Positions 28,563 to 32,087 of a stretch of DNA of 64,000 nt are shown here, piece after piece (position 1 is the first letter of the stretch; each line of letters opens with the position of its first letter). A program made the position numbers and the translations under genes. The notes beneath the pieces are model-generated. The model saw only the letters and a program-made list of their open reading frames with translations. It had not been told where the DNA came from and made no database searches. Source of the stretch: an uncultured Burkholderiales bacterium (lineage in GTDB: Bacteria > Pseudomonadota > Gammaproteobacteria > Burkholderiales > Burkholderiaceae_C); the NCBI GenBank assembly GCA_945952065.1, contig CAMFGY010000008.1, forward strand, positions 62,001 to 126,000, written 5' to 3'.

Positions 28563-29306
28563 CTACTCGCCCTTGAGCAGGCGTTGCGCCAAACGTTCGG
28601 GCAAGCCGGCAGCGCGAATGCTGGCCGCCGCGCCTTCCACGTCATAGGGTACGCGTTGGAAACTCAGCTCGGCGTTGGCGCTGTCAAACACGGCATAGCA
28701 AGCCGCCGGATTGCCATCGCGCGGTTGTCCGCAAGAGCCGGGAATGACCAGCCATTGCCGATTCGGCAGCAGCGGAATGCTCACATCCGGCGCAGGCGTG
28801 AACTCGCCCGCCTTGCCCGTGCCCGAGAGGTGGTAGAGCATGGGCTCGTGCATATGGCCGCAGAAGGTAAAGCGGGCCTCGGTGGCGTGCAGGCTGCGCA
28901 TGGCTTCGATGCGGCCCTGGATGTAGTCCCAGCCACCGGGATCGTAGGCATTGGCATGCACAAACAGCCGATCTTCACGCATCACCGTCAGCGGCAGTTG
29001 GCCCAGAAAGGCGAGGTGACGGGGGCTGAGCCGGGCATGGGTCCACTCGATGACCTGCCGGGCTTCTTCGCGCATGGTGGGGCCCGCGCCCTGCGCCACC
29101 GCAGCGTCGTGGTTGCCTCGCACGGCCACGGCGCCCGCATCCACCAGCGCCATCACCCGGTCCAGCACCCAGGCTGGGTCACCCCCATAGCCAACAAAGT
29201 CGCCCAATAGAGCGTAGTCAGTCACGCCCAGGCCTTGGGCGTGTTCCAGCACGGCAGAAAAAGCCTGGGCGTTGGCGTGCAGATCGGTGATGAGAGCAAT
29301 TTTCAT
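28563..29306 (-). CDS. Metallophosphoesterase (YfcE/calcineurin-like)
   Basis: Two-metal phosphoesterase, 247 aa. All fold motifs are visible: DLHAN (8-12), GDFVGYGGD, GNHDA and GHMHEP near residue 150. The start at 29306 (MKIALITDLHANAQ) matches the family N-terminus; a longer in-frame extension to 29375 lacks conservation. It lies 61 bp upstream of the kinase-USP gene on the same strand, which suggests a functional link such as dephosphorylation, but this is inference. The substrate is unknown. Confidence 0.85.
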   Translation of the reverse strand: MKIALITDLHANAQAFSAVLEHAQGLGVTDYALLGDFVGYGGDPAWVLDRVMALVDAGAVAVRGNHDAAVAQGAGPTMREEARQVIEWTHARLSPRHLAFLGQLPLTVMREDRLFVHANAYDPGGWDYIQGRIEAMRSLHATEARFTFCGHMHEPMLYHLSGTGKAGEFTPAPDVSIPLLPNRQWLVIPGSCGQPRDGNPAACYAVFDSANAELSFQRVPYDVEGAAASIRAAGLPERLAQRLLKGE

Positions 29307-29409
29307 GGCGGGCCCAGCATGCCACGCCAGCCTGACGTCGGGCTGAAGCTCGCCTCTGTAGGCCCTGTGAAGCACCCCAGAGGATTCCCTAGGGTGTGCC
29401 GCTCCCTTA

Positions 29410-30675
29410 TCAGGCTTGGCGAGCGGGCATGCGCTTGTTGCGCGCCACCCAGCCCAGCAAGCCCAGGCCAGCCAACATCAAGGCGTAGCTCTCGGGCTCG
29501 GGTACCGGCGCATTGATAGACAAGGCCACAAACTGTGTGAACTGGGTATTGCCGAAATTGTTGTCCGACACCAGCACCAAGGTTTGCTTGCCGTCGATGA
29601 CCGGGCCCAAGGTCAGGCCTTCGATATTGTCCAGCGCCAAGACGGAGCCATCATCGTTTTTCAGGGTGGACAGGTCCAGCAGCAACTCCTTGCTTGCTGC
29701 GGTGAAGTTCTGACCCTTCAGCGACTCCATGCCCGAGACATCGGTGGCCTGACTCGCATCGACAAAGTACAGGCGGATGGTGTTGCCGGTGGGCTTGCCA
29801 TCGGTGGTCGCCGCGACACCAGGCGTTGCGGCGCCAACGCCGAACGAGCGCTCAATCGCGATGAACTGGCGGTCGCCAATGGCGAGCAGGTCGGTCAAGC
29901 CATTGGTCGCAAACTGGCCCGGCACGGGCGGCAGGACCACGGGCGCGACTTGGTACACATATTCAGCGCCAGCCTTGCCGGTGTTCAGGTCGAAGGAGAG
30001 CAGGCGTGCATTGCTGCCATTGCTGACGCTGGAAGGCAGGTCGTCTTGGCTGAGCGCGTTTTCGGTGGCCGTCCACAGGGTCTTGCCGTCTTTGGACAGC
30101 GTCAGGCTTTCAAAGGCCAGGTTGTTGTAGATACCACGGTCACCGGCCGCTGTTCCTGCATTCGAACCTGCGGGCTTGAAACGATCCGGCACGGCGAATT
30201 CGCCGGCATAGCTGCCGTCCAGATTCATGCTGCGCACGGTGGGGTCTTGGAAGCCGGCGGCTGAGCGCTGCCCTTCATTGGTCCAATAGATGCGATTGCG
30301 AGCGGCATCGAAACGCAGGCTTTCGGGGTCCACTTGATTGGTGCCGAAGGCGCTGCCATTCTTATTGAGGATGGTGGTCACCGCGTTGAAGCTCACGCCG
30401 GCGCTGTTGGCCGTGGCGCTGCGCTGGAATTTGGCAATGTCCAGGCTGAGTTCATAAAAGCGAGCGGGATTGGCTGCACTGCGGTCATCGCTGATGGCCA
30501 GGTAGCGGCCAGTGGCCGCGTTGTAATCGATGCCAGACAGGCCGCCAACCGTGGTGCCGGCAAAGTTGCGACCGGTCTCGACGATTTGCTGGCCGATATA
30601 GCTGAGGGAGAGGGTTTCGGCTTGTACCGCGCCAATGCTGAGGAGGGCGGCGCTGAGGGCGAGAAGTTTTTTCAT
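29410..30675 (-). CDS. Phytase-like esterase domain protein with PEP-CTERM sorting signal
   Basis: Exported protein, 421 aa from ATG 30675 (MKKLLALSAALLSIGAVQAE, a clear Sec signal). The body resembles the esterase-like/phytase-like beta-propeller family (GGLSGIDYNAATGRYLAISDDRS; NIEGLTLGP). The C-terminus is a PEP-CTERM tail: VPEPESYALMLAGLGLLGWVARNKR, that is PEP, a membrane span and a basic end. Such proteins are processed by an exosortase and are typical of species that make exopolysaccharide; no exosortase gene is in the window. No activity can be assigned. Confidence 0.85.
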   Translation of the reverse strand: MKKLLALSAALLSIGAVQAETLSLSYIGQQIVETGRNFAGTTVGGLSGIDYNAATGRYLAISDDRSAANPARFYELSLDIAKFQRSATANSAGVSFNAVTTILNKNGSAFGTNQVDPESLRFDAARNRIYWTNEGQRSAAGFQDPTVRSMNLDGSYAGEFAVPDRFKPAGSNAGTAAGDRGIYNNLAFESLTLSKDGKTLWTATENALSQDDLPSSVSNGSNARLLSFDLNTGKAGAEYVYQVAPVVLPPVPGQFATNGLTDLLAIGDRQFIAIERSFGVGAATPGVAATTDGKPTGNTIRLYFVDASQATDVSGMESLKGQNFTAASKELLLDLSTLKNDDGSVLALDNIEGLTLGPVIDGKQTLVLVSDNNFGNTQFTQFVALSINAPVPEPESYALMLAGLGLLGWVARNKRMPARQA

Positions 30676-30738
30676 GGCCTGAGGTCTGAGTTGCAAACTC
30701 AAGCCCGGGCTGGGCTTGATATGAGACTCAGCCTAACG

Positions 30739-30812: not shown

Positions 30813-30872
30813 TCAGCCGATACGGCCGAGCAGAAGATACGCCACGAGTGCCTTCTGCACCTGCATGCGATT
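30813..30872 (-). repeat. Degenerate copy 1 of the argF 3' end
   Basis: Read leftward, this encodes NRMQVQKALVAYLLLGRIG followed by TGA: the last 19 codons and stop of argF with three amino-acid changes (H to Q, M to V, E to A) and several silent changes. It lies 152 bp beyond copy 2. Confidence 0.8.
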
Positions 30873-30900
30873 TTGGTCTTGGCCGCGCCTCTCGGCGCTT

Positions 30901-30919
30901 CACTTTGCGGGGCAAAGTG
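30901..30919. repeat. Inner hairpin of array unit 1
   Basis: CACTTTGC and GCAAAGTG are perfect 8-bp arms around a GGG loop. The matching hairpin in the next unit has one base pair changed on both arms. Confidence 0.65.
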
Positions 30920-30964
30920 AGCCAAGCCCAAACAGAATGCGCCCTTGCGGGCGCGTCTCGGCTT

Positions 30965-31024
30965 TCAGCCGATCCGCCCGAGCAGAAGGTACTCCATGAG
31001 TGCCTTCTGCACGTGCATTCTGTT
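30965..31024 (-). repeat. Copy 2 of the argF 3' end, silent differences only
   Basis: Read leftward, this encodes NRMHVQKALMEYLLLGRIG and TGA, identical in protein to the true argF end. All 8 base changes in the 19 sense codons are silent, and the stop is TGA instead of TAA. It is flanked by an 11-bp inverted repeat, AAACAGAATGC at 30930-30940 and GCATTCTGTTT at 31015-31025. Confidence 0.85.
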
Positions 31025-31053
31025 TTGGTGCGCACACGCCGCTGGCGCGGCTT

Positions 31054-31074
31054 CACTTGGCTTGGCGCCAAGTG
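31054..31074. repeat. Inner hairpin of array unit 2
   Basis: CACTTGGC and GCCAAGTG are perfect arms, the counterpart of the hairpin at 30901-30919 with a T:A pair replaced by G:C. Confidence 0.65.
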
Positions 31075-31084
31075 AGTGCACCCC

Positions 31085-31185
31085 GAATCGCATGCAGCCA
31101 TGTCGGGCCGCGCCCGCCTCGGCCTTAGCCGATGCGGCCGAGCAAAAGGTACTCCATGAGTGCCTTTTGCACATGCATGCGATTC
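31085..31185. repeat. Inverted-repeat pair enclosing the end of argF
   Basis: GAATCGCATGCA (31085-31096) is the exact reverse complement of TGCATGCGATTC (31174-31185), the argF sequence for NRMH. The loop holds the last 16 argF codons, the stop and about 28 nt of 3' sequence, so the argF mRNA could fold its own 3' end into a long hairpin. Confidence 0.65.
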
Positions 31186-32087
31186 TCCGCCTCATCCCAG
31201 ACGACGGATTGGGGGCCGTCGATGACTTCGGCGGTGACTTCTTCGCCACGATGGGCGGGCAGGCAGTGCATGAAGAGGGCGTCGGGTTTGGCCACGCCCA
31301 TCATCTCTGCGTCCACGCACCAGTCAGCAAAGGCGGCGCGGCGTTTGTCGTTTTCAGCCTCGAAGCCCATGCTGGTCCAGACATCGGTGGTGACCAAGTC
31401 AGCGCCGCGGCAGGCATCCAAGGGGTTCTTGAAGACCTTGTAGCAGTCGCTGTTTTTGATGCCGGCGACCGCCGGGTCGATCTCGTAACCGCTGGGCGTG
31501 CTGACATGCACGGTGAAGCCAAGAATCTCGGCCGCTTGCAGCCAGGTGTTGGCCATATTGTTGCCATCGCCCACCCAGGCCACCACACGGCCTTTCAGGC
31601 AGTCCACATCGACGATGCCGCGCTGGTTCATGCCGCGCGCTTCGATGAAGGTGAACAAATCCGCGAGGATCTGGCAGGGGTGGTACTCGTTGGTCAGGCC
31701 ATTGATGACCGGCACCCGCGAGTGCGCCGCAAAGCGTTCCAACTTGCTTTGCTCAAAGGTGCGGATCATCACCAAGTCCACCATGCGGCTGATGACGCGA
31801 GCGCTGTCTTCGATGGGCTCGGCGCGACCCAACTGGCTGTCGCCGGTGGTCAAGTGCACCACCGAGCCGCCCATCTGGTACATGCCGGCTTCAAAGCTGA
31901 CCCGGGTGCGGGTGCTGGCTTTCTCGAAAATCATGGCCAGTGACCGGTCGGCCAAGGGCTGATAGCGCTCATAGTTTTTGAAGCGACGCTTGATGATGGC
32001 GGCGCGTTCGAACAGATGGGCGTACTCCTCGGCGCGGAAGTCTTTGAACTGCAGGTAATGGCGCATCAGGCTGGCACCGGGCTTCAT
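31125..32087 (-). CDS. argF: Ornithine carbamoyltransferase
   Basis: Makes citrulline from ornithine and carbamoyl phosphate in arginine synthesis; cytoplasmic trimer. Starting at 32087 the product is 320 aa: this ATG overlaps the argD stop as ATGA and has a GGAG site about 12 nt upstream; an internal ATG at 32066 would give 313 aa. Motifs: carbamoyl-phosphate site EKASTRTRVSFE, HPCQILADL, WVGDGNNMANTW and the ornithine/catalytic HCLP in FMHCLPAHRGEEV. The end of the gene (NRMHVQKALMEYLLLGRIG) is repeated twice in the DNA downstream. ArgI is an equivalent name in some species. Confidence 0.95.
   Translation of the reverse strand: MKPGASLMRHYLQFKDFRAEEYAHLFERAAIIKRRFKNYERYQPLADRSLAMIFEKASTRTRVSFEAGMYQMGGSVVHLTTGDSQLGRAEPIEDSARVISRMVDLVMIRTFEQSKLERFAAHSRVPVINGLTNEYHPCQILADLFTFIEARGMNQRGIVDVDCLKGRVVAWVGDGNNMANTWLQAAEILGFTVHVSTPSGYEIDPAVAGIKNSDCYKVFKNPLDACRGADLVTTDVWTSMGFEAENDKRRAAFADWCVDAEMMGVAKPDALFMHCLPAHRGEEVTAEVIDGPQSVVWDEAENRMHVQKALMEYLLLGRIG

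Follow-up and report, generated by a model that had tools for sequence, protein, structure and literature searches.

The three copies of the argF 3' end that lie side by side in the window, a 64,000-nt stretch of contig CAMFGY010000008.1 from an uncultured Burkholderiales bacterium, are read here, at slightly better than even confidence, as the record of two generations of a small non-coding mobile unit. This unit is a gene-end cassette that would leave as a circle and enter at a matching 10-nt box (R). The argF units are ∼140-165 bp long and share one plan: host codons from a GAN^AA crossover, the stop codon, a spacer, a box R'' and a core, Y, ending in CCAN. The same plan recurs at many Burkholderiales genes.

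All features of the array are on the minus strand of the window. The argF gene (31125..32087) scores over the cut-off of the NCBIfam ornithine carbamoyltransferase model, with the start codon at 32087 read from the sequence. Its 3' end lies at 31125, and the final 60 bases appear again at 31024-30965 and 30872-30813. The three copies are in register (30813-30872, 30965-31024 and 31125-31184), with their starts 152 and 160 bp apart. The DNA between copies is likewise repeated in plan, a feature that the original prediction missed, and consists of the reverse complement of the copy's first 10 nt followed by a covarying three-way-junction fold. Over 19 codons, the argF end differs from copy 2 by seven silent codon changes (eight bases) and no replacement, with stop codons TAA and TGA, respectively. 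Copies 2 and 3 differ by five silent and three replacement codon changes (H to Q, M to V and E to A). The coordinates, periods and change counts of the original prediction for these ends all proved correct.

The periods of 160 and 152 bp are the lengths of two units. Unit 1 (31025..31184, 160 bp) is inserted at GAG^AA, where the argF body ends in GAG, and it includes the final 60 bases of the gene. It begins with the coding box R1 (AATCGCATGC, 31175..31184), which opens the present argF 3' end (19 codons plus stop, 31125..31184); this tail itself contains a palindrome, GCAAAAGG..CCTTTTGC, likewise missed by the original prediction. A spacer 3' of the stop (31096..31124) is followed by R1'' (GCATGCGATT, 31086..31095), the reverse complement of R1 at 10 of 10 positions, and by the core Y1 (31025..31085), identified by covariation and model hits, which comprises the L'' stem, hairpin 1, hairpin 2, the L' stem and a CCAA end. 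Unit 2, the older (30873..31024, 152 bp), consists of displaced tail 2 (30965..31024) with its box R2 (AACAGAATGC), a spacer, R2'' (GCATTCTGTT, 30931..30940), the reverse complement of R2, and Y2 (30873..30930), likewise identified by covariation and model hits. Unit 1 lies exactly at the crossover preceding the tail of unit 2. The oldest displaced tail, tail 3 (30813..30872), carries the three replacement changes, has no Y behind it and opens with an R3 box identical to R1 (AATCGCATGC). The gene that follows argF varies among close relatives. In the window it is a PEP-CTERM phytase-like protein (28563-30702), which is probably also the 3' neighbor in G012, with a similar flank; elsewhere it is a metallophosphatase, a TetR-like protein or a solute-binding protein (names partly by eye).

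The core Y is a stem (L''/L') bearing two hairpins, that is, a three-way junction. A model-free alignment of 12 sequences has 44 double-change cells, against 20 in shuffled and at most 10 in slid controls. Hits of a first covariance model (model R1) gave 600 double-change cells against 184 shuffled (101 distinct rows), and those of a second (model R2), built from sequences found with the first, gave 677 against 224 (111 distinct rows), both alignments being fitted to the model and hence biased towards it. By majority, the second set has the consensus TT-CGGCGnAGGCTAAC..GCGCAGC..GTTAAG-CCGCGnAGCGG-CGGCCGnAGCCA-AA. Of the first-set hits 15 of 92, and of the second-set hits 43 of 103, contain a symmetric CGNAG/CGNAG internal loop; loops of this type form sheared G-A pairs in DNA. 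G-T pairs make up 5.5% and 4.6% of paired cells in the first and second hit sets, a low share that is suggestive of DNA rather than RNA. Against Rfam 15, the best match at the window locus had an E-value of 0.31, below the gathering score, and none of six matches at 12 other loci reached it.

The R'' box is gene-specific and usually pairs with the R of its own unit. Its reverse complement was found upstream at 9-10 of 10 positions in 38 of 84 hits of the first set (84 of 92 used, eight having no definable boundary), against 0.6% of control draws, in which R'' boxes of other loci were substituted. For the second set the corresponding figures, at 9 or more of 10, were 62 of 103 hits and 2.0% of 2060 draws; these hits are drawn from 117 matches, the other 14 being additional units, or weaker matches, at loci that were already represented. 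In 23 of the 103, R'' matched at 7 positions or fewer. The strongly matching R boxes are preceded by GANAA in 33 of 62 cases (GAAAA 21, GACAA 7, GAGAA 5), and the usual right end of the unit is CCANAA.

Whether R'' fits the box of its own unit or that of the displaced tail was decided by a fair test, in which boxes were fixed from an in-frame alignment anchored at the stop, without reference to R'', and the same five shifts were allowed for both. This test took 49 of 56 pairs, seven frame-doubtful ones having been dropped by eye. The own R box matched at 8 or more of 10 in 35 of 49 pairs, the displaced box in 23 of 49 and unrelated R'' boxes in 0.8% of 609 draws. Among the 30 pairs whose two boxes differ, own R fitted better in 22 and the displaced box in six, with two ties. 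Four of these six (L140, L141, L217, L234) look misframed, and two (L186 and L226, where R'' fits the displaced box at 9 of 10) are real. The conclusion rests on this test and is weaker than in earlier versions. Counts of 45 of 46 for own R (first set) and 56 of 59 with three ties (second set) are biased, because inclusion required an own match of at least 8 and the own box was picked as the best among ∼170 positions. A gapped search without R gave own/displaced/tie counts of 25/19/5 (n=49) and 22/13/7 (n=42), with many boxes misplaced by indels, and still earlier counts (new/old/tie) were 19/12/2 (n=33, with wrong boundaries) and 22/10/3 (n=35).

Because R'' usually fits its own R, the hairpin is usually complete only in a closed circle, as in integron cassettes. 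Both R'' boxes of the window are perfectly complementary to the R of their own unit and match the R that follows Y at only 7 of 10. Correspondingly, the circle form of the two window units (Y with own R) is predicted to fold at -53.5 and -47.8 kcal/mol, and the integrated form (Y with the R following in the chromosome) at -40.1 and -37.7 kcal/mol, all with RNA energy parameters.

The displaced copies evolved as coding DNA. Across 37 pairs, 132 silent and 47 replacement codon changes were counted, against a random expectation of 35.9 silent changes (sd 5.3, maximum 53 in 500), and 21 of the 37 pairs differ by silent changes only. These pairs come from 56 aligned ones (195 hits), of which 44 differ after the first four codons, seven frame-doubtful pairs again being dropped by eye. 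Five pairs with identical ends (L065, L090, L110, L013, L242) are also compatible with copying in place. An ordinary tandem duplication with random substitutions, which would have counted against the original prediction, was rejected on these coding-type differences together with an R'' usually specific to its own unit. A general recoding of gene ends into hairpins was considered and rejected: over 44 pairs the mean z was -0.64 for new and -0.28 for displaced tails, the new tail being lower in 22 (p = 0.19). For argF only (n=30), the better palindrome lay in the new tail in 17 cases and in the displaced tail in two, with 11 equal.

Gene overlaps reveal which of the two copies is native. Eight ftsW loci were examined, and in all seven that could be located (L101 was not) the displaced copy holds the ATGA overlap that opens a long downstream ORF; this ORF runs for 293-362 codons from the displaced copy (two run off the locus) and for 45-51 from the gene copy. 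For ruvC, where the unit sits at the 5' end, the displaced start reads ATGA followed by an AGA arginine codon in seven of the nine loci located (10 examined), and the gene copy has CGC or CGT for this arginine, L086 excepted. The upstream frame ending at the displaced start is 254-419 codons long in three of these loci and 0-58 in the other four, so that a native overlap is shown for three loci only. A displaced copy in the native overlap, at ftsW and partly at ruvC, indicates that the displaced copy is the native one and that the gene copy came with the unit. The displaced copies thus look like former real gene ends. The main claim of the original prediction, that a small unit bringing a replacement end inserted repeatedly and displaced real argF ends, is supported by the varying copy number among relatives, by the mostly silent differences over many genes, by the overlaps (seven of seven located loci for ftsW, three of nine for ruvC), by the position of unit 1 in the window exactly at the crossover, and by the separate histories of argF units and gene bodies described below.

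One comparison counts against this reading. The flanks of G009, whose argF is empty, and of G004, filled by 163 bp, align once the unit is removed, and the argF end of G009 is closer to the new tail of G004 than to its displaced tail. A later loss by repeat recombination or conversion would explain this likeness, as would the opposite polarity at that locus.

Units of this plan are not confined to argF. At E ≤ 1e-4 the Y model hits the window's genome five times, twice at argF and once each at the end of a livM-like gene (C36), next to lepA (C9) and at the end of folE2 (C24). It also finds a match at E ≤ 0.1 in 28 of 59 relatives. A sample of the order Burkholderiales yielded matches at E ≤ 1e-4 in at least 89 of 300 genomes and at least 49 of 135 genera, and a class sample (369 genomes, E ≤ 0.001) at least two, in the own genome and in one of its family; these counts are lower bounds, with up to 12-15 candidates scored per genome in the order and class samples (up to 12 in the class). 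Related species and repeated genes make all such counts non-independent.

The genes concerned, named mostly by reading their translated ends, include argF, ftsW (with murG next), acs, folE2, groES, recA and an aldehyde-dehydrogenase-like gene, among others, at 3' ends, and ruvC and lepA at 5' ends, where the units lie antisense at the gene start. RNA-gene sites are 16S rRNA, tRNA-Leu and tRNA-Ser. The unit-bearing genes show 42 distinct protein endings, some being variants of one gene. A second copy was located in 45 of the 92 hits of the first set, and all 195 hits yielded 56 distinct second-copy pairs, sought at coding 3' ends only. Wherever a second copy is visible, it is the end of that same gene.

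At argF itself, a pattern scan of genome contigs returned 30 records with the tail present twice, 137-163 bp apart, and all 30 match the Y model. They belong to Roseateles, Pelomonas, Paucibacter, Acidovorax, Delftia, Comamonas, Ramlibacter, Rhizobacter, Alicycliphilus and unclassified taxa. Copy number in related genomes, a check proposed with the original prediction, does vary, with 0, 1, 2 or 3 units in genomes of the same genus. The repeat is therefore not due to chance, given relatives with 0-3 units at the same place and 30 doubled-tail records with a fold match.

Several individual loci deserve description. At L137 (G054, reverse strand 850-1410), the first 36 bases of tRNA-Ser occur five times, 127-141 bp apart; four of the five precede the gene proper, and a Y element lies among the copies. 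In the same genome, at L145:11640-12030, three Y-like units lie between a displaced tRNA-Leu 5' half and a complete tRNA-Leu gene. A Y element immediately follows the apparent 3' end of a 16S rRNA at L131 (G022, ∼851-916). Six Y units of two alternating types, spaced 107-117 bp, stand behind one gene at L166 (G483:C67:14708-15354). Finally, the displaced end of a recA-like gene at L178 (G471) encodes a clearly different C-terminal tail, judged by eye as if swapped between species.

Comparison of argF units with the gene bodies beside them points to exchange between species. Unit and body identities are 99.4% and 94.3% for G008/G011, and 97.5% and 92.2% for G003/G005, a unit identity above body identity being found in just 8 of the 55 comparisons among 11 genomes. 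The argF body of G006 is 92.9% like that of G003, yet its unit is of a different type (79%). A largely non-coding unit that is more alike than the adjoining coding gene points to transfer, and the exchange of argF units between species, separately from the gene body, is well supported by these identities. More broadly, core similarity is 0.404 for the same gene in other genomes, 0.227 for other genes in the same genome and 0.194 elsewhere; for 109 of the 128 usable hits (of 195), the closest core belongs to the same gene. In G586, G647 and G588 the cores also group by genome, which looks like a colonisation of new genes within each.

Among the enzyme families examined, none tracks the units. 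Of 59 relatives, 31 have a match to the integron integrase model TIGR02249 above its cut-off, among them the window's genome (G000:C5:199718-200662). Split by hand count, they comprise 18 of the 28 genomes with elements and 13 of the 31 without, and G054, with 11 Y hits, has no TIGR02249 match over the cut-off. Y1_Tnp has no match in the element-bearing genomes G054 and G033, and RVT_1 none in six of 11 genomes examined (G033, G282, G054, G501, G647, G547). A 207-aa stand-alone tyrosine recombinase at L266:1381-2004 has 14 further matches (69-93% identity over near-full length), and its matches, found in 17 of 80 genomes, do not track the units. None of the integron integrase, the Y1 transposase and the 207-aa integrase tracks the units, and all three are thus unlikely drivers. 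In the element-bearing G547 (92% complete), XerC and XerD are the only Phage_integrase matches; no dif-like site was seen by eye at the target. The original suggestion of an integrase, as in some insertions at gene 3' ends, is unsupported: units of this length have no room for a gene, and none of the recombinase families examined tracks them. The enzyme would instead be a general host one, with XerC/XerD a candidate, or an undescribed one.

The mechanism proposed on this basis is as follows. Excision, which we infer, would release the unit as a circle, probably single-stranded. In this circle R'' and R would complete a long hairpin continuous with Y, and the completed hairpin would be the recombination site. 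As target it would use a matching R box in another cell's copy of the host gene, immediately upstream of the end resident there. That gene would remain whole, since the unit supplies a new end, while the old end would be pushed downstream and decay. New units would enter at the gene-proximal side, so that the order of an array would be the order of arrival.

Other explanations must be weighed against this mechanism. A serious rival, although one we consider rather unlikely, is that the units have no dedicated mobility now: they would have formed once per gene and spread by homologous recombination after DNA uptake, arrays gaining and losing members by slippage or unequal crossing-over between tail copies. 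Core similarity does follow the gene (0.404) more than the genome (0.227), with 128 of 195 hits usable; near-identical tandem units occur in G012, G010, G021 and G054, runs that slippage probably makes; G547 has no candidate beyond XerC/XerD and no RVT_1 match; and a unit with its flanking tail could travel as one block. What this account leaves unexplained is why many unrelated genes share one conserved fold, each with a gene-specific R'' to match, and why the GANAA crossover (33 of 62 strong matches) and CCANAA recur. Alternatively, a small transposon or retroelement could insert in place, the second tail being a long target-site duplication of 40-90 bp. The identical or near-identical tails at L065, L086 and L091, the copies of L092 that stay alike a few bases beyond the stop, and the fit of R'' to the displaced box in L186 and L226 would agree with this, but R'' mostly fits the gene-side R (22 of 30), the differences are mostly silent, unlike those of a never-coding duplicate, the spacer is usually absent from the displaced copy, and RVT_1 has no match in six of the 11 genomes examined. 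A target-site duplication by a transposon or retroelement is thus strained, and we regard it as improbable.

Two further explanations seem to us very improbable. That the units are integron gene cassettes of the ordinary kind, with IntI acting at attC sites, is favored by the shared logic of inverse and core box pairing and by the TIGR02249 matches in 31 of 59 relatives; the boxes, however, are gene-specific, ending in TT and beginning with AA rather than reading RYYYAAC/GTTRRRY, the units sit at ordinary gene ends, and G054 has 11 hits without TIGR02249 over the cut-off. A fold that acts in the transcript, as a structured RNA or a terminator that follows genes and has spread by duplication, would suit the many units that come after stop codons and the argF stop region, for which the new copy gives the more stable fold in 26 of 30 cases. 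Such an RNA leaves the displaced gene ends unexplained, and units also occur antisense at gene starts (ruvC, lepA) and at tRNA genes, with a share of G-T pairs (∼5% of paired cells) that suits DNA.

The gene-end cassette resembles several known systems in part. In an integron cassette, the box at the cassette start completes attC only in the circle. The units are alike in having a folded hairpin whose outer boxes are fully paired only in the free circle (here usually), and arrays with the newest member at one side; own-box complementarity was 8 or more of 10 in 35 of 49 pairs and 10 of 10 in the window units, with L186 and L226 as exceptions. The attC boxes are given as RYYYAAC (inverse core) and GTTRRRY (core) in PMC3053210. 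The units do not show these boxes, their own being gene-specific with the consensus TT-CGG..CCA-N-AA, and no dependence on IntI was seen. They also differ from integron cassettes in that the unit has no gene of its own, its cargo is the end of the target gene, it targets the inside of many different genes, and its core is a three-way junction.

Some phages and integrative elements carry a copy of the target gene end beside attP. Insertion inside a gene end, restoration of the gene by the carried copy and displacement of the old end are shared with them, whereas the present units are ∼150 bp long, have no integrase and use one fold for many genes. REP/REPIN sequences with TnpA-REP (RAYT) are similarly small, palindromic, non-coding repeats, possibly with single-stranded mobility. 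REPs remain intergenic and are not known to carry gene ends; the units differ in carrying gene ends, and the element-bearing G054 and G033 have no Y1_Tnp match. The rhs and cdiA loci hold orphan C-terminal ends, encoding diverse toxins, that are exchanged by homologous recombination. Displaced former gene ends are stacked downstream of the gene there as here, but the units carry the ends of housekeeping proteins, and the protein stays the same.

Nothing like these units was found in the literature searched, a scope outside which preprints and most subscription papers lie, and they are rated as a new kind that works like an integron cassette without being one. We propose tentatively, at somewhat less than even confidence, that they represent a new mobile class with the end of a host gene as cargo: a folded single-stranded circle that R'' would aim at the 10-nt box of the same gene in another species, exchanging the ends of housekeeping genes and other loci (argF, ftsW, ruvC, folE2, tRNAs) among Burkholderiales without loss of function, probably by means of a borrowed host enzyme.

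If this is right, housekeeping genes are colonised from inside, undamaged, by a unit of less than 200 bp without a gene of its own; their ends are replaced by those of other species, and the former ends leave a readable record in the DNA. Cassette logic would thereby have a second instance beyond integrons, the enzyme could be sought directly, and the odd silent repeats seen after genes in a large and widely sequenced order would be accounted for. It would also serve as a warning that the last codons of genes can differ in history from the rest.
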